A stretch of DNA of 15,271 nt from Burkholderiales bacterium. Its GTDB lineage: Bacteria > Pseudomonadota > Gammaproteobacteria > Burkholderiales > SG8-39. Numbering within the stretch: the first letter of the stretch is position 1; every line of letters begins with the position of its first letter. Positions 4,933 to 12,049 of this stretch are shown one piece after another. The stretch lies in NCBI GenBank assembly GCA_029266935.1, contig JAQSVY010000004.1, positions 1 to 15,271 on the forward strand, in the 5' to 3' direction. Below the pieces are notes generated by a model. It saw nothing but the letters and a program-made list of their open reading frames with translations, was not told where the DNA came from and did not search any database. The translations under genes and the position numbers were made by a program.

Positions 4933-4956
4933 GTGCGCTGACGTTTGGGGGCAGCA

Positions 4957-7900
4957 ATGGCGCGCACGGAATGGCTGTCGGAAGGGGCGGAGAAGCTCGC
5001 GTTCGAGCTGCTCGGCCAGGAGGGCTTGCATTGCCACGTCGCCATCGTCGGCAGCGGCTACGGCGGCGCCGTCGCGGCAGCCCGGCTCGCCGGCGCGAGG
5101 GAAGCCGCAGACGCCGGGGACTCGAAGGTCTGGGTGCTCGAGCGCGGCCGCGAGTTCCTGCCCGGCTCGTTCCCCGAGCGCTTCGCCGACCTGCCCGGCG
5201 AGGTGAGATTCAGCGCCGGCGAGCGCCCTCCAACGCGCGGCATGGCCGAAGGACTGTACGACCTGCGCGTGGGCGAGGACGTCAGCGCCTTGCTCGGCAA
5301 CGGCCTAGGGGGAGGATCCCTCATCAATGCCGGTGTGCTGGCGCGGCCGCGGGCGGAAGTGTTCCACTCCGGGAAATGGCCGGCCGGCCTCACCCGCGAC
5401 GCGCTGGAAGATCACTTCGACCGGGCGGAGTCGATGCTCGGCGGCCGGCCGCTGCCCGGCGCAAAGAGGCTCGACAAGCTCGATTCCCTGGGCTCCCTTG
5501 CCCTGGGCGGTGCGCCGGAGCGGGCCACGATCGCCGTCACTTTCGAGGACAAGAGCCTGAGCCGCGGCGGCGTAGAGCAAGTCAAGTGCGTAGATTGCGG
5601 CGACTGCTTCACGGGATGCAATCACTGGGCGAAGAACACGCTCGCCATGAACTACCTGCCGTTCGCCGCGGCGCGAGGCGCCCGGCTGTTCAACGGCGTG
5701 ACCGTGCTCTCGTTGAGCGGCTGCGACGGCGCCTGGGAGCTCGAGCTCGAGTTCACCGATCCGAAGCTGCGCGCGCGCTTCGGCAGGCAGATGCCGGCGC
5801 TGCGCGCGGCGCGCGTCGTCCTTGCGGCGGGCGCCTACGGCTCCACGGGGATTCTGCTGCGCTCGGAGCGCAGAGGATTCCGGCAGATTTCCGGCGAGCT
5901 CGGGAAGCGCTTCTCCGCCAACGGCGACATGATCTCCGCCGGCTATCGCATGCCGCACCGGGTCAATGCGAGCGCGCACGAATCGCTGGCGCCGGAACCG
6001 GACTTGCGCAGGATCGGCCCGACCATCACCGGCATGGTGGACCTGCGCGACGGCACGACGCCGCTCGTGGTCGAGGAACTCGCCATCCCGGCGGCGCTGC
6101 GCCGGCCGCTGGAGGAGATCGTCACGACCTTCGCCGCCCTGCATGACCTCGCGCGCGTGGACTGGTCCAGGCACGGCGCCGGCGCAGGCGCGGTCGATCC
6201 GGCGGCAGTCGATCCAGAGGCCATCGGCCGGACGGCGATCTACGCCACCATCGGCGAGGATGATGCGGAAGGGGTGCTCGCGCTTCCGGAGCACGAGGAC
6301 GCGCTCGCGTGCGACGACGGGCTGTCGGTGAAGTGGCCCGGGGTGGGCAAGCAGCCGGTGTTCCGCAAGGCGATCGAGCTCCTCGAGAAGGCGCACAAGG
6401 CGAGCAAGGCCATCCTCCTACCGAATCCCCTCTGGCGCCCGCTCCCGCAGCGCATCGGCGGCGTGCTGGAGGGGGACCTCGGGGGATCGGTGTTCACCGT
6501 GCATCCGCTCGGCGGCTGCGCGATGGCGGACGACGCGGGCCGAGGCGTGGTCAACGAATACGGCCAGGTGTTCCGGGCGGGAGAGGGCACCGGCGTGCAC
6601 GAGACGCTGGCGGTGCTCGACGGCGCCATCGTTCCGAGTGCGCTTGGCACCAATCCTTGCCTCACCATCGCGGCGCTCGCTGAGCGCGCCGCGCCGGAGC
6701 TCGCGCGGCATTGGGGCATGACCCTGCACGAGGACGACGTTGCGCTGCCGCCGCGTGCGCGGCCGCCGCAGCCGCCGAAGAGGGAATGGCGCGTGCCGGG
6801 CGCCACCGGCCTGCGGCTCGCCGAGCGGCTCGATGGGCAGGTCCGGCTCGGGTACGCGCGTGTCGGGGCGATCGACTACCCCGGGCTGTTCGACGCCGAG
6901 CTCGAGCTCGAGTACGAGCCGATTGGCGACATGGAGGCCTTCCTGCGCCAGCCGGCAAAGGTGATGCCGGTGCGCCGGGCGCAGCTGCGCCTGAAGGGCG
7001 ACGTCGACGCCGGCGGCGCCACCACGAGCTGGAGCGGAACCATCCCGCTCATCGACGGTCGGCTCGTCTTTCTCGAGCGCGAAGATTCCCATTGGCTTTG
7101 GCGCATCCTGCGCGCCGGCTGGGCGTGGGCATTCAATCGCGGCGTGCGCGACGTTGCCGACATGCTGCGGGGCCTCGTTTCTCCCAGGCGGCTGCTGCGC
7201 CGCCTCGCCCGCCCGGGCTCTCTCTTGCGCTTTCCCGCGACGGCATGGCAGGCCATCGCCGGCTTCTTCGCCGTCGCCTCGCAGGCGGGTGAAGCGCGGC
7301 GCATGCGCTACCGGTTCGCGGTCGCCGACGACGTGATCGTGAAGGTGGGCGACGAGCAGGTGCGGCTGCTCCGCCAGGGAGACCTGCTGCTCGGCGAGAA
7401 ACGGCTAGCGTACACCGCGGGAATCTTCGCCGATGGCGAGAGCTGGCCAAGCCCCCTGGACCAGATGACGAAGCTGCCGTTGCTCCTGAAGCGCGCCGGC
7501 GCCGCGCATGCGGTGCGCCTCGGCGTGCTGCAGGTGAACCTGCCGTTCTTCGTGCAGCATCACGCGACGCAGCTCCAGATCTCCGCCCAGGACAACCAGC
7601 CGCGCGCGATCGCCGACCTGCTTTCGTTCCTTCTCTTCCTCGCGCGGGTCATCGGCAAGATCCACATCTGGAGCTTCCGCGCGCCCGACTATCCGGATCC
7701 GTACCCAGTCTACGAATTCGCGGCCAAGGACCGCGACGAGGCCAAGGCCGCCGCGCGCGAGGCGGGCGTGCGCGTCGCCGACCGCCTCGAGCACCGCCTG
7801 CCCGGCGAAGTGCGCGGGCTATGCCGCAGCGTGCATCCCCTCGCGGTGCGGGCGGGCGACGCTCAACTGACCCGCTATCGCTCCGAATCGCGGCGACCGG

Positions 7901-10662
7901 ACCCGGGAAAAGGACCGGTGCTGCTCATCCACGGCCTGGGCGCCAGCGGCAATACGTTCACGCTGCCCACGGTGGACGAGAACCTGGTGCAGCACCTCGC
8001 GCGCCGCGGCTTCGATCCGTGGGTGCTCGACCTGCGCACCAGCATCGGTCTCGCGAGCTCCAAGCGCGACTGGAGATTCGAGGACGTCGCGCGCGAGGAC
8101 ATTCCTGTGGCGCTGCGCCGTATCGGCGACGAGACCGGGCAGCCGGTCAACGTGGTGGCGCACTGCATCGGCGCCGCGATGTTCTGCATGTCTGCGCTGG
8201 AAGGGCACCTGCGCGATCTCGGCGTGCGCGCCGCCGTGCTCTCGCAGGTCGGGCCCCTGCTCGAGCTGCCCGCCACCAACCGCTTCCGCGGCTACGTCGC
8301 CAGCTACCTCAAGCACTACCTGGACATCGGCGAGCTCGACACCACCGGGTCGCTGAGCGGCTTCAACCGCTTCCTCGACCGCCTGCTCGCGGGATACCCG
8401 TATCCGTCCAGCGAGTGGCTGGAGCACCGCCCGCTGCTCGGCCGGGTGGAGCACGAGGCCTATTGCATTCGCGCCTACGGGATCTATGGTCGCCTGTTCG
8501 AGCACCGCAACCTCAATCACGAGACGCTCGAGGTGCTCGGCGACTACCTCGGGCACATCCGCTACCGCACCTACCAGCAGACCATCTTCTACGCGACGAT
8601 GCGCAGGCTCACCGACGAAGCCGGGCGCAACGTCTACGTGACTTCGGCGAACGTCGCGCAGCGCATGGACTTCCCGGTGTGCTTCCTGCACGGCGAGCTG
8701 AACGAGGTGTTCCATGTGCGCACGAGCCGCCGCTCGTTCGACCTGCTCGCCTCCGTGTTCTGGCCGAGCGACCTGAAGACGATCTGGGAGACCGATCCCG
8801 CGGCGCGCTATGGGCATGAAAACTATGCGAAGGGGGAGCGGCTGCGCCTGGTGGCCGTCGAAGGATACGGCCACCAGGACTGCATGATCGGCAAGCGCGC
8901 GCATGTGGACGTGTACCCGGAGATCTCGGGGTTCCTCTCCCAGGCGTTCGACACGCCTTCGCCGCCGGTTGCGCCCCAGTTCGTGGTCAGGCCGCCGCGC
9001 ATGGGGCCGATGGTGGGGTGGGTGCGCGAGGAGCCCGAAGGGCAGCGACGCGTGCGGCTGCTGTTCGTCCCGAACGACTCCCGCTCCGAACCATGCTATG
9101 CGATGAGCATCGTGCTCGCTGGCGCCAAGGCGGTCGCCGCCAGCTTCCACCCGCTGCGGCGGCTGCCGGCGGAATCCGAGAAGGCGCAGGGCGCGTGGCC
9201 CGCGACACAGGCGATCGACATCGAGCTGCCGCCACGAGCCGCGCACTACACGGTGGTCGTCGTGACCGTCCATCGCGAGCACTACGAGCCCGAGCCCCTG
9301 CGCGAGGCCGGTGAGCCACCAGTCGACGATCCTTTCGGCGAGGACCTCGACCGTTTTCCCACGCTGCCGCAAGGGCTGGCGTTTCCCCTCGACCCGCGCC
9401 ACGTCGCGGCCATGCCGTTCGCCGAGGCGGTCCTCGAGACCTGCAAGGACCTCGATCTGCGCCGCGTGCCGCTGCCGACTGGCCATTGCACATCCGACCG
9501 GCGCTACGCGACCGCGACGAGCGCGGCGATACTCTCGGAAAGGACGCTCAAGGCAGCGGCGTCCGCGAGCGAGTCGCTGTGCTTCGCGCTTGGCAGCTGC
9601 CGCTATCCGGCGAACGTCACCGATCGCGAGGCGGCAGACGCGAGCTTCGGACGGCTGCGGGAGCGCCTGGAGAGGCGCGACCTCGGGCCGGTGCCACAAT
9701 TGCTGATCCTCGCCGGCGACGCCATCTACGCCGACGCGACCTACGGCATCTTCGACCCGACTCTCGGCGTCGAGCGTTACGACCAGCGCTATCTCGAGGC
9801 GTGGACCGCGCCGCATGCGCGCGAGGTGCTGCGGCGGTTGCCGCTCATGCCGATGCTCGACGATCACGAGCTGGAGGAGAACTACGACGGGGTGCGTCCG
9901 CCGCTGCGCCGCAGCGAGGCCGTGGAGGCGGGGCTGGAAGCTTTCGAGTCCTTCCAGCTGCGCCTGACGCCCGCTTTCCCGGACCCCGCCCAGCCGTGGC
10001 CCGACTCTCGCCGCTACTTCTATCGCGCGCGCGCCAGCCGGTTCGGCTTCTTCATCATGGACACGCGCACGGAGCGGCAGCGTGGACGCGGTACCGGCAG
10101 CCTCGACGCCGCCATCGTCAGTCGCGAGCAGATGGACGACGTGAAGCAATGGCTGAGCGGCTTTTCGGCAACGCCGGACGAGCCGAAGTTCATCGTTTCG
10201 CCGAGCGTCGTGGCGCCCTGGTCGCGTGAGACCCGCGGCGCTCTCGCGTACTCGCTGCGCTCGGACGCCTGGGACGGCTTCCCGGCCTCGCTTTACGAGC
10301 TGCTCGGCTTCATCGCGCGCGAGCGCATCCGCAACGTGGTATTCCTGTCCGGCGACTTCCACTGCTCGCTGTTCTGCGAGATGCAGCTCCAGCTCGGCAC
10401 CCAGGATGCCGTGCCGGCGTATTCCGTCGTCTCCTCGGGACTCTATTCGCCCTATCCGTTCGCCAATACGGCGATGGCGCACCTGGAGTCCGAGTTCCAC
10501 GGCGCCTTCGGTCATCGGTTCGGCACGGCGGGCATGGGCGAGCTGCGGGTGCGCTACCAGGCGCACGACGCCGGCGCGGCGGACAGCTTCGCCATCGTGG
10601 ACGTCGATCGCGCCGCAATGAAGGTGGAGTTCCGCGCCCGGTGCTTCCCTGTCACGTTCTGA
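4957..10662 (+). CDS. trimodular GMC oxidoreductase / alpha-beta hydrolase / PhoD-like phosphatase
   Basis: A 1901-residue protein in one uninterrupted frame. ATG 4957 is chosen because a G-run (4946-4950) sits at Shine-Dalgarno distance; a TTG 12 bp earlier is possible. Module 1, about 1-590, is a cholesterol-oxidase-type GMC flavoenzyme: FAD loop GSGYGG (32-37), GNGLGGGSLINAG, a Cys set C211/C214/C217/C221, active-site H516 in HPLGGC, and N566 in GTNPCLTI. About 600-960 is unassigned. Module 2, about 985-1320, is an alpha/beta hydrolase resembling acid lipases: oxyanion HGLGASG (992-998), nucleophile elbow VAHCIGA with C1070 where Ser is usual, HGELNEVF (N1249/E1250), and GYGHQDCMIGK with H1306. 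Module 3, about 1335-1901, is PhoD-like: a beta-rich lead-in, then C1548, GDAIYAD (D1588, Y1591), LDDHE (1634-1638) and SGDFHCS (D1800, H1802). No signal peptide or certain membrane helix is seen, so it is probably cytoplasmic. Likely role (inference): de-esterification or dephosphorylation plus oxidation of a sterol- or terpenoid-like alcohol. Confidence 0.9.
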   Translation: MARTEWLSEGAEKLAFELLGQEGLHCHVAIVGSGYGGAVAAARLAGAREAADAGDSKVWVLERGREFLPGSFPERFADLPGEVRFSAGERPPTRGMAEGLYDLRVGEDVSALLGNGLGGGSLINAGVLARPRAEVFHSGKWPAGLTRDALEDHFDRAESMLGGRPLPGAKRLDKLDSLGSLALGGAPERATIAVTFEDKSLSRGGVEQVKCVDCGDCFTGCNHWAKNTLAMNYLPFAAARGARLFNGVTVLSLSGCDGAWELELEFTDPKLRARFGRQMPALRAARVVLAAGAYGSTGILLRSERRGFRQISGELGKRFSANGDMISAGYRMPHRVNASAHESLAPEPDLRRIGPTITGMVDLRDGTTPLVVEELAIPAALRRPLEEIVTTFAALHDLARVDWSRHGAGAGAVDPAAVDPEAIGRTAIYATIGEDDAEGVLALPEHEDALACDDGLSVKWPGVGKQPVFRKAIELLEKAHKASKAILLPNPLWRPLPQRIGGVLEGDLGGSVFTVHPLGGCAMADDAGRGVVNEYGQVFRAGEGTGVHETLAVLDGAIVPSALGTNPCLTIAALAERAAPELARHWGMTLHEDDVALPPRARPPQPPKREWRVPGATGLRLAERLDGQVRLGYARVGAIDYPGLFDAELELEYEPIGDMEAFLRQPAKVMPVRRAQLRLKGDVDAGGATTSWSGTIPLIDGRLVFLEREDSHWLWRILRAGWAWAFNRGVRDVADMLRGLVSPRRLLRRLARPGSLLRFPATAWQAIAGFFAVASQAGEARRMRYRFAVADDVIVKVGDEQVRLLRQGDLLLGEKRLAYTAGIFADGESWPSPLDQMTKLPLLLKRAGAAHAVRLGVLQVNLPFFVQHHATQLQISAQDNQPRAIADLLSFLLFLARVIGKIHIWSFRAPDYPDPYPVYEFAAKDRDEAKAAAREAGVRVADRLEHRLPGEVRGLCRSVHPLAVRAGDAQLTRYRSESRRPDPGKGPVLLIHGLGASGNTFTLPTVDENLVQHLARRGFDPWVLDLRTSIGLASSKRDWRFEDVAREDIPVALRRIGDETGQPVNVVAHCIGAAMFCMSALEGHLRDLGVRAAVLSQVGPLLELPATNRFRGYVASYLKHYLDIGELDTTGSLSGFNRFLDRLLAGYPYPSSEWLEHRPLLGRVEHEAYCIRAYGIYGRLFEHRNLNHETLEVLGDYLGHIRYRTYQQTIFYATMRRLTDEAGRNVYVTSANVAQRMDFPVCFLHGELNEVFHVRTSRRSFDLLASVFWPSDLKTIWETDPAARYGHENYAKGERLRLVAVEGYGHQDCMIGKRAHVDVYPEISGFLSQAFDTPSPPVAPQFVVRPPRMGPMVGWVREEPEGQRRVRLLFVPNDSRSEPCYAMSIVLAGAKAVAASFHPLRRLPAESEKAQGAWPATQAIDIELPPRAAHYTVVVVTVHREHYEPEPLREAGEPPVDDPFGEDLDRFPTLPQGLAFPLDPRHVAAMPFAEAVLETCKDLDLRRVPLPTGHCTSDRRYATATSAAILSERTLKAAASASESLCFALGSCRYPANVTDREAADASFGRLRERLERRDLGPVPQLLILAGDAIYADATYGIFDPTLGVERYDQRYLEAWTAPHAREVLRRLPLMPMLDDHELEENYDGVRPPLRRSEAVEAGLEAFESFQLRLTPAFPDPAQPWPDSRRYFYRARASRFGFFIMDTRTERQRGRGTGSLDAAIVSREQMDDVKQWLSGFSATPDEPKFIVSPSVVAPWSRETRGALAYSLRSDAWDGFPASLYELLGFIARERIRNVVFLSGDFHCSLFCEMQLQLGTQDAVPAYSVVSSGLYSPYPFANTAMAHLESEFHGAFGHRFGTAGMGELRVRYQAHDAGAADSFAIVDVDRAAMKVEFRARCFPVTF

Positions 10663-10669
10663 AGGCGCT

Positions 10670-12049
10670 GTGCCGGTGCGACTGATGCGGCGCGTGCGGA
10701 ACTTCGGGCGCAATGTCGCCTTCGTGCCCGACGCGCACTATCGCCCAGGCAGCGTTGCCGAAGTTCTGGAGTGCCTGCGCCGCCACGGCGGCGCGAAGGT
10801 CCGCTGCATCGGCGCCGGTCACTCGTGGAGCCGCATCCTCGCCACCGACGGCGTGCTTCTCGACCTTGGGGCGCTCGACGGTGTCGCGATCGAGTCGGGC
10901 TCGCTGGCGCGGGTCGGCGCCGGGTGCACGTTGAAGCGGCTGCTGAATGTGCTTGGACGCGATGGGCTCACGCTGCCTTCGCTCGGCGCCATCACGAAGC
11001 AGACGATCGCGGGCGCCGTTTCCACCGGGACGCACGGCTCGGGTTCGCACAGCCTGTCGCACTTCGTGGAGGAGTTGCGCGTGGCGCATGCCGCGGGCGG
11101 CGAGGAGATCATCGCCGGCGGGGCGGGTCTCGCCGCGGCGCGCTGCGGCCTCGGCGCCCTGGGCGTCATTCTCGACTTGGCGGTCCGGGTCGTACCGCGC
11201 TACCGCGTAGAGGAGCGCTTCGAGAACATCGAGCGCCTCGGCGACGTGCTAAGGGACAAGGCGGCGTGGCCGCTGCAGCAGTTCGCGCTGGTGCCGTGGA
11301 GCTGGCGCTACCTGGTGTGGCGCCGCCGCCGCACGCTGGCACGCGGCAGCCGGATCGGCGCCTGGCTTGCGCGCCTGTACCTCGCGGTCTTCAACGACGT
11401 TCTGCTGCACTGGCTGCTGAAGCACGTGCTCCTGCGGCTGAGCGATGCGCGTATGCGGGCGTTCTACGGCATGCTCGGCCGCTGGATGCGCTGGAGTCCG
11501 CCGCGGATCGACGATAGCGTGCGGGTCCTCACGCTGCGCCACGATCTCTTTCGTCACGTCGAGATGGAGCTCTTCGTGCCCGGGTCGCGCATAGAGGAGG
11601 CCGCTGGTGCCCTGCGCGAGATCGTCGAGCTCGCTGGCGGCACGCGCAAGCAGTGCTCCGATGCGCTGCGGCGATCGCTCGCGGCGGCCGGCCTGGAGGA
11701 GGAGGTCGCCGACCTGCGCGGAACCTGGACGCAGCATTACCCGCTGTTCTTCCGCCGCGTCCTGGCCGACGACGCGCTCGTCTCCATGGCCGCCGACGGC
11801 GAGCGCGCCGGCGATGACTGGTACTCGATCAGCTTCTTCACTTACCGCCAAGTCGAGGTGCGCTTCGCCCGCTTCGCCAGGACCGTGGCCAGGTGCATCC
11901 TGCTGCTCTATCGCGGGCGCCTGCACTGGGGGAAGTACTTTCCCGTGACGATGGCCGAGGCTGCGCTGAGCTATCCCCGCTTCGACGAGTTCAAGCGCAT
12001 CGCAGAGGCCTACGATCCGGCGCGCGCGTTCTGGAGCGAGAACCTCTGA
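10670..12049 (+). CDS. FAD-binding oxidase, aldonolactone-oxidase-like (VAO family)
   Basis: A 459-residue flavoprotein of the vanillyl-alcohol-oxidase fold, closest in look to L-gulono-/D-arabinono-1,4-lactone oxidases and alditol oxidases. The FAD (PCMH) domain fills about residues 10-190: VRCIGAGHSW with H51, the position that carries covalent FAD in these families, then GCTLKRLLNVLGRDGLTLPSLGAI and TIAGAVSTGTHGSG. The C-terminal ALO-type domain ends in RLHWGKYF and the closing FKRIAEAYDPARAFWSENL, both characteristic. The middle (about 225-275) is unusually basic and hydrophobic (RRRRTLARGSRIGAWLARLYLAVFNDVLLHWLLKHVLL) and may touch the membrane. A GAAGG Shine-Dalgarno sits 4 nt before GTG 10670, only 7 bp after the giant enzyme's stop, so they share an operon; ATG 10685 is an alternative start. 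Its 3' end overlaps the convergent MFS gene by 40 bp. The substrate is unknown. Confidence 0.9.
   Translation: MPVRLMRRVRNFGRNVAFVPDAHYRPGSVAEVLECLRRHGGAKVRCIGAGHSWSRILATDGVLLDLGALDGVAIESGSLARVGAGCTLKRLLNVLGRDGLTLPSLGAITKQTIAGAVSTGTHGSGSHSLSHFVEELRVAHAAGGEEIIAGGAGLAAARCGLGALGVILDLAVRVVPRYRVEERFENIERLGDVLRDKAAWPLQQFALVPWSWRYLVWRRRRTLARGSRIGAWLARLYLAVFNDVLLHWLLKHVLLRLSDARMRAFYGMLGRWMRWSPPRIDDSVRVLTLRHDLFRHVEMELFVPGSRIEEAAGALREIVELAGGTRKQCSDALRRSLAAAGLEEEVADLRGTWTQHYPLFFRRVLADDALVSMAADGERAGDDWYSISFFTYRQVEVRFARFARTVARCILLLYRGRLHWGKYFPVTMAEAALSYPRFDEFKRIAEAYDPARAFWSENL

Follow-up and report, generated by a model that had tools for sequence, protein, structure and literature searches.

A 1901-residue bacterial multienzyme with GMC flavoenzyme, acid-lipase-like and PhoD-type modules and a predicted cysteine-asparagine-histidine triad

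Several parts of the protein described here have well-characterized relatives, and we cite the papers on them for the parts of their text that were available. A 2019 paper on an artificial cysteine lipase asked whether natural cysteine lipases exist (PMC6642262). In the FAD-glucose dehydrogenase of Burkholderia cepacia, a 3Fe-4S cluster bound by Cys212, Cys218 and Cys222 accepts electrons from FAD (PMC6719666). Finally, PhoD of Bacillus subtilis binds Fe3+ via Cys and Tyr along with two Ca2+, and the phospholipase D of S. chromofuscus is said to share its Cys ligand (PMC4223295).

On the 15,271-nt stretch of DNA analysed here (the whole of which we call the window), a single chain joins a GMC flavoenzyme, an unnamed module of ~340 residues, an alpha/beta hydrolase and a PhoD-type phosphoesterase (Table 1). 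A first-pass annotation of the letters had recognized the three enzymes; to these we add the fourth, unnamed module, the Cys-Asn-His triad, a cysteine cluster and a linked sensor kinase. Among the matches listed in our literature search, which covered titles and the beginnings of abstracts, there was no description of this architecture, of the GMC cysteine cluster or of the triad. We propose, giving the model roughly even credence, that the protein works in the cytoplasm as a two-component-linked multienzyme acting on a phosphorylated and/or acylated hydrophobic alcohol, a model in which we infer the activities, the substrate, the order of steps and the regulation.

Table 1. Positions of the multienzyme gene, its modules and key residues, and the adjoining genes in the window
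Feature	Position	Strand	Basis
LuxR-type response regulator, 212 aa	2520..3158	+	Pfam
Hybrid sensor histidine kinase, 603 aa	3121..4932	+	Pfam; in-frame ATG 3121 is the chosen start; directly upstream of the multienzyme
Shine-Dalgarno-like GGGGG	4947..4951	+	just 5' of ATG 4957, read directly
Multienzyme gene, 1901 aa	4957..10662	+	ATG 4957 to TGA 10662, no inner stop
GMC flavoenzyme module	4957..6756	+	residues ~1-600; PF00732 and PF05199; cholesterol oxidase 2.2e-16
Cysteine cluster C211-x2-C214-x2-C217-x3-C221, predicted iron-sulfur site	5587..5619	+	conservation; ligand spacing from the available part of PMC6719666
His516, catalytic His of the GMC His/Asn pair	6502..6504	+	239/239; aligned with cholesterol oxidase HPLGGC
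Asn566, catalytic Asn of the GMC His/Asn pair	6652..6654	+	239/239; aligned with cholesterol oxidase
Unnamed middle module	6757..7776	+	residues ~601-940; no Pfam family; separate gene in L137 and L159
Alpha/beta hydrolase module, acid-lipase-like	7777..8991	+	residues ~941-1345; gastric lipase 2e-11; Pfam
Cys1070, predicted nucleophile, elbow A-H-C-I-G	8164..8166	+	Cys in 240/240
Asn1249, canonical catalytic-acid place after strand beta7	8701..8703	+	Asn in 239/240; hhalign on Asp of ordinary hydrolases
His1306, predicted catalytic base, GYGHxD	8872..8874	+	His in 240/240; hhalign
PhoD-type phosphoesterase module	9547..10659	+	residues ~1531-1901; PF09423 E 3.4e-19; PhoD structure 2yeq E 7.2e-11
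Cys1548, likely Fe3+ thiolate ligand with Asp1588, Tyr1591 and His1802	9598..9600	+	Cys in 148/148; residue match by motif
FAD_binding_4 and ALO (sugar-lactone-oxidase-like) gene	10670-12049	+	Pfam; starts 7 nt past the multienzyme stop

Fused, split and short forms of the multienzyme

The claim that three enzyme modules occupy one intact frame proved correct: the frame is open throughout, and a Pfam search places GMC_oxred_N at residues 110-303, GMC_oxred_C at 514-575, Abhydrolase_1 at 987-1106 and PhoD at 1580-1838, all above their cut-offs, whereas for residues 600-962 and for 1401-1540 Pfam has nothing at E <= 10. Translation might also begin at an in-frame TTG at 4945. In a simple hydropathy scan the only hydrophobic stretch lies at residues 884-902 and the N-terminus has none, which fits the absence of a signal peptide remarked on in the first-pass annotation.

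The source assembly is incomplete (2.19 Mb in 375 contigs, 56.5% complete), and the window is one of its contigs. An assembly join or a chimera can be ruled out because the all-in-one frame recurs across many records. A genome scan returned 307 loci, the best 80 of which, from alpha-, beta- and gammaproteobacteria, were retained; these 80 contain clusters of near relatives and are not independent, and 43 of them carry GMC, hydrolase and PhoD in a single frame. Homologues are not always encoded separately, then, and the fusion is real. In 32 of the 80 loci (L062 being counted here as split, not fused) PhoD is a separate next gene on the same strand, often overlapping the GMC-middle-hydrolase gene, and in the remaining five (L023, L030, L050, L080, L081) the contig ends before PhoD. 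Note that one record found twice (L162 and L017) is counted once, and that our 43-row alignment set of fused loci excludes L004 and L062.

A protein database search, in which only the 7989 candidates with most shared words were scored, found 771 relatives at E <= 1e-3, with identity down to 33% among the matches listed. By hand count from the listing, 119 of the best 120 measure 1787-2029 aa and bear PhoD and GMC labels, so that the domain architecture does recur, and 110 of the 120 bear a hydrolase label. The 1901-residue multienzyme is a member of an existing protein family and not an artefact. Its distribution is scattered: at E <= 1e-30 we find matches in 11 genomes out of 200 from the order and in 11 out of 398 from the phylum. 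Both counts include the window's own genome, some matches cover GMC only, and the order sample may share genomes with the 80 loci.

Other relatives are simpler. A shorter form of ~1150 aa comprises GMC, middle and hydrolase modules only, and in L137 and L159 hydrolase, middle and GMC are separate neighbouring genes. We did not find PhoD beside the short GMC-middle-hydrolase forms, and only one of the six (L165) has a kinase of the kind described below, at a distance of ~1.9 kb. The core reaction therefore needs neither PhoD nor kinase; similarly, since PhoD is a separate gene in so many loci, covalent joining must be dispensable. One short form (L163:2318-5792, +) has two GMC stretches in tandem, followed by middle and hydrolase modules. 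Directly behind another lies the gene for a different metallophosphoesterase with an SDIHLG motif (L134:4576-5439, -), which we take to be LpxH-like; the layout looks as if a phosphoesterase of another family stood in for PhoD. A motif search did not find SDIHLG in the five other short-form loci.

We also considered a defence system and rejected it: PADLOC has no match for the enzyme and gives only domain-level matches for its neighbours (kinase 9e-8 and 2.6e-5, regulator 1.8e-5 and weaker).

The predicted triad of the hydrolase module

The first-pass annotation had called the hydrolase acid-lipase-like, and the best solved relatives of its profile bear this out: gastric lipase (1hlg, at the E-value in Table 1) is followed by lysosomal acid lipase (6v7n, 1.1e-8) and, more weakly, by Bacillus lipase A (4e-5 and weaker), the PHB depolymerase PhaZ7 (3.4e-4) and PHA synthase (0.003). 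It had also held that all three enzymes keep most of their active-site motifs. This is true of the GMC and PhoD modules but not of the hydrolase, where Cys stands in place of Ser and Asn in place of Asp.

How consistent is this replacement? We aligned 240 proteins, namely the window's own and the 239 best listed from two protein searches. Half of them were found via words in the first 500 residues (the GMC part), a search that exerts no selection for Cys. Across this set neither the Cys nor the His ever varies, and the Asn gives way only once, to Ser. The 80 loci come from a two-pattern scan in which one pattern includes the Cys elbow, and taken alone they would therefore overstate Cys; in 45 rows of fused loci Cys and His again never vary, and the third residue is Asn except in two rows, which have Ser. 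Aligning the family profile by hhalign with six hydrolases of the same assembly (five with a Ser and one with an Asp nucleophile, being those of eight tried that passed a motif filter) matches their Asp with Asn1249 and their nucleophile with Cys1070. Some alpha/beta enzymes have the acid at an alternative place, the end of strand beta6, as the available part of one paper describes (PMC7034887). Here, judging by the sequence, that place seems to be occupied by Gln1097, which is invariant (240/240).

The same residues extend to the simpler forms. Cys and His are present in the six short fused forms, whose sequences we read directly (L134, L135, L136, L163, L164, L165), and in three stand-alone copies (L137, L159, L181); Asn is at the acid place in five of the former (L134, L135, L136, L163, L164) and in all three of the latter. 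Beyond the family, a sample of 299 genomes contains 18 places that match the family profile at E <= 1e-8. Seven of these belong to the family: L166-L170 plus L181 and L183, which are two halves of one gene (L181 read). The elbow was read in all of the 11 nearest non-member places but L174: nine (L179 among them) have Ser, five of these with Asp as the acid, and L180 has Cys and an apparent Asp and is PHA-synthase-like as read. This distribution points to Cys and Asn as a derived pair that sets the entire family apart.

The predicted triad thus reads Cys-Asn-His, as in papain, and not Ser-Asp-His. One reading of such a domain is that it is an acyltransferase or a PHA-synthase-like polymerase, moving acyl groups rather than hydrolysing them. 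In the available part of one paper, PHA synthases are described as having an alpha/beta fold and a Cys at the elbow (PMC5509742), one of them is a weak match to our profile, and the PHA-synthase-like L180 is among the weak matches of the genome sample. However, PHA synthase keeps Asp (PMC5509742, available part) where Asn stands in the family, the match to acid lipases is far stronger, and PhaC_N has no Pfam match in either the 1901-residue protein or its hydrolase module. We consider this reading unlikely, if worth keeping in mind, and regard the hydrolase module instead as a candidate natural cysteine lipase. The family as a whole would then be a concrete and strictly conserved candidate of this kind, one in which Asn accompanies Cys as it does in papain.

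The linked sensor kinase

Just upstream of the multienzyme gene, and in the same direction, lie genes for a LuxR-type regulator and a hybrid sensor kinase, which overlap each other; the gap between kinase and multienzyme is 24 nt. Relatives of the kinase occur anywhere in the retained flanks in 66 of the 80 loci, and relatives of the regulator in 48. The kinase is directly beside the multienzyme gene in 64 of 76 assessable loci, leaving aside four loci with at most ~100 nt upstream (L004, L023, L027, L037) and counting as adjacent L003, whose flank has only part of the kinase. In 60 cases it is directly upstream on the same strand (54, plus six assigned by re-reading coordinates), in three it is convergent behind the gene and in one it is downstream on the same strand. 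Kinases 1.3 or 2.5 kb off (L053 and L074) were not counted as adjacent. Of the 14 loci that lack the kinase, four have no upstream DNA. In six, all alphaproteobacterial (L014, L017, L024, L033, L064, L076), a cyclase/AAA gene of ~1360 aa takes the kinase's place; Pfam, applied to two of these, recognizes guanylate cyclase and AAA_16 in L017 and the AAA part only in L033. L032, L039, L065 and L077 have neither gene beside the multienzyme despite enough flank.

The linkage is also apparent in a tree of 93 kinases, where the fusion-linked label requires 3 changes as opposed to 22.9 when shuffled, and none of 500 shuffles was as low; the tree is a quick one with long branches and mixed sources. 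It comprises 92 of 96 extracted kinases (three short rows and L102, a copy of the window's, being left out) and the window's own, with L104 and L107 set to adjacent and L074 labelled adjacent though 2.5 kb off. Two kinases of other genomes, L103 and L122, fall within linked branches with no fusion adjoining, L103 being at a contig end. Besides the window's own, five of the 200 genomes sampled from the order carry the long form (G032, G055, G097, G118, G175), with the PhoD part seen in all but G097, and each of the five has the kinase beside it.

Elsewhere in the linked branches, a kinase and regulator (L133:5721-10539, +) are followed by a 786-aa gene that by eye is outer-membrane-receptor-like, and by no fusion; this genome (G191) carries the modules as separate genes at another location. 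The ALO-like flavoenzyme gene downstream of the window's multienzyme was considered as a conserved partner and rejected, having no homologue at E <= 1e-8 in 80 other loci.

Might the multienzyme make or destroy a lipid-like signal, with the membrane kinase next to it as the sensor? Autoinducer synthases adjoin their sensors, and both the adjacency and the tree agree with such a role, as do the six loci with a cyclase/AAA gene in the kinase's position: a signalling gene is kept there while its type changes. Yet the same gene order would be expected from ordinary regulation of a catabolic enzyme, and kinases of this kind are widespread without the enzyme (at E <= 1e-50 they occur in 65 of 200 genomes). 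We find the signal role rather unlikely. The most far-reaching combination would have the hydrolase module found a natural cysteine-lipase family (papain-type Cys-His-Asn on an acid-lipase fold), working alongside the iron-sulfur GMC dehydrogenase and the phosphoesterase of its own chain to make or remove a lipid signal for the linked kinase; this we regard as a long shot. The model favoured here is the unmasking and oxidation of a hydrophobic alcohol, with the two-component pair as its regulator.

Proposed unmasking and oxidation, and comparison with known systems

The GMC module retains the FAD-binding GxGxxG (G32, G34 and G36 in 238/238) along with its His/Asn pair. Within its cysteine cluster, C211, C217 and C221 are present in 239/239 proteins and C214 in 226/239, and the aligned stretch of cholesterol oxidase has no such cluster. 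Since the C-x5-C-x3-C spacing is identical to that of the 3Fe-4S ligands of FAD-glucose dehydrogenase (PMC6719666, available part), the module is probably a dehydrogenase, and we predict one of the iron-sulfur type. The stand-alone GMC relatives L091 and L092 also carry the cluster, which is therefore a trait of this GMC branch and not of the fusion.

These observations bear on whether the pathway is one of sterol catabolism, in which a steryl ester or phosphate would be cleaved and the sterol then oxidized by the cholesterol-oxidase-like domain. Only family resemblance favours the sterol substrate entertained in the first-pass annotation: among solved structures cholesterol oxidase comes nearest to the GMC module, and gastric/lysosomal acid lipase, which hydrolyses cholesteryl esters, to the hydrolase module, and the His/Asn pair is kept. 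Against this, the module scores 152.4 bits on the NCBIfam cholesterol oxidase model, far below the cut-off of 850, and has a cysteine cluster where cholesterol oxidase has none. The position paired with the catalytic Glu of cholesterol oxidase (near FAEIAPMPA) is E374, by eye, as the program alignment is shifted there, and among 239 proteins it is E in 145, D in 93 and A in one. E387 was dropped as a counterpart after alignment, E374 fitting the local motif better, again by eye only. Finally, a Pfam scan of the 10 window proteins recognized no steroid-pathway gene. Sterol catabolism is, in our view, very doubtful.

The PhoD module scores 69.6 bits against a PF09423 cut-off of 27, and C1548, D1588, Y1591 and H1802 are each present in at least 147 of 148 proteins; from the motif, we take C1548 to be the likely counterpart of PhoD Cys-180. 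The middle module is less readily placed. Searching 43 relatives against Pfam gave only five one-member matches, the best at E 0.008, and its profile matches four PLL-lectin chains among solved structures (E 0.0014-0.029 over ~30-64 positions) and ATP sulfurylase at 0.58.

How might these parts work together? Suppose that a hydrophobic alcohol arrives masked by phosphate and/or acyl groups and is held, probably, by the middle module. The PhoD module, of the Fe3+/Ca2+ type, would hydrolyse the phosphoester. The thiolate of Cys1070, with His1306 oriented by Asn1249 as in papain, would attack the acyl group, and the acyl-enzyme thioester would then be released to water or another acceptor. The freed alcohol would be dehydrogenated at FAD by the GMC module through His516 and Asn566, and electrons would pass to the cysteine-bound iron-sulfur cluster and on to an acceptor, not directly to O2. 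The geometry of both triad and cluster is predicted from sequence. When the multienzyme is made would be controlled by the hybrid sensor kinase and the LuxR-type regulator.

The release-then-oxidise coupling raised in the first-pass annotation is plausible because the modules stay together, be it in one frame, with PhoD split off, or as separate genes side by side. That PhoD, acyl-cleaving and alcohol-oxidizing modules so regularly keep company suggests unmasking followed by oxidation under membrane-sensor control, in an order that we infer. A join that serves joint expression only, with the modules working on unrelated substrates, would suit the loci with a separate PhoD gene but sits poorly with the adjacency of the modules, separate or fused, across alpha-, beta- and gammaproteobacterial records, and we think it quite improbable. 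The linked modules and the kinase offer a way toward finding the substrate. With that known, proteins that now go by 'cholesterol oxidase', 'choline dehydrogenase-like flavoprotein' or 'alpha/beta fold hydrolase' would become a defined enzyme.

Comparison with known systems, again as described in the available parts of the papers, brings out what is shared and what is not. Cholesterol oxidase (e.g. PDB 4u2l) has the GMC family, the FAD motif and the His/Asn pair in common with our GMC module, but it is a single enzyme without the cysteine cluster in the aligned stretch, whereas the module has the cluster and is part of a multienzyme. FAD-glucose dehydrogenase shares the His/Asn pair as well as the cluster spacing (PMC6719666); its structure 6a2u is a weak match (2.6e-6, the best stretch covering only residues 24-52), and it forms a complex with small (hitchhiker) and cytochrome subunits (PMC6719666), neither of which Pfam finds among the 10 window ORFs. 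PhoD of Bacillus subtilis and the module here share PF09423 and, by motif, a Cys/Tyr-type iron site (PMC4223295); the PhoD family is called extra-cytoplasmic (PMC4223295), while here, by the hydropathy scan, it is a C-terminal domain without an export signal. Gastric and lysosomal acid lipases (1hlg, 6v7n) resemble the hydrolase module in the sequence of the core fold, but lysosomal acid lipase has Ser-His-Asp (PMC7397744) where the module has a predicted Cys-His-Asn. The PHA synthase PhaC (PMC5509742) shares the alpha/beta fold and a Cys nucleophile, differing in its Cys-His-Asp and GxCxG box from the A-H-C-I-G and Asn found here. The artificial cysteine lipase CALB QW4 (PMC6642262), like the module as we read it, combines a lipase-type fold with a Cys nucleophile; it was made in the laboratory and retains Asp, whereas the family described here carries Asn.
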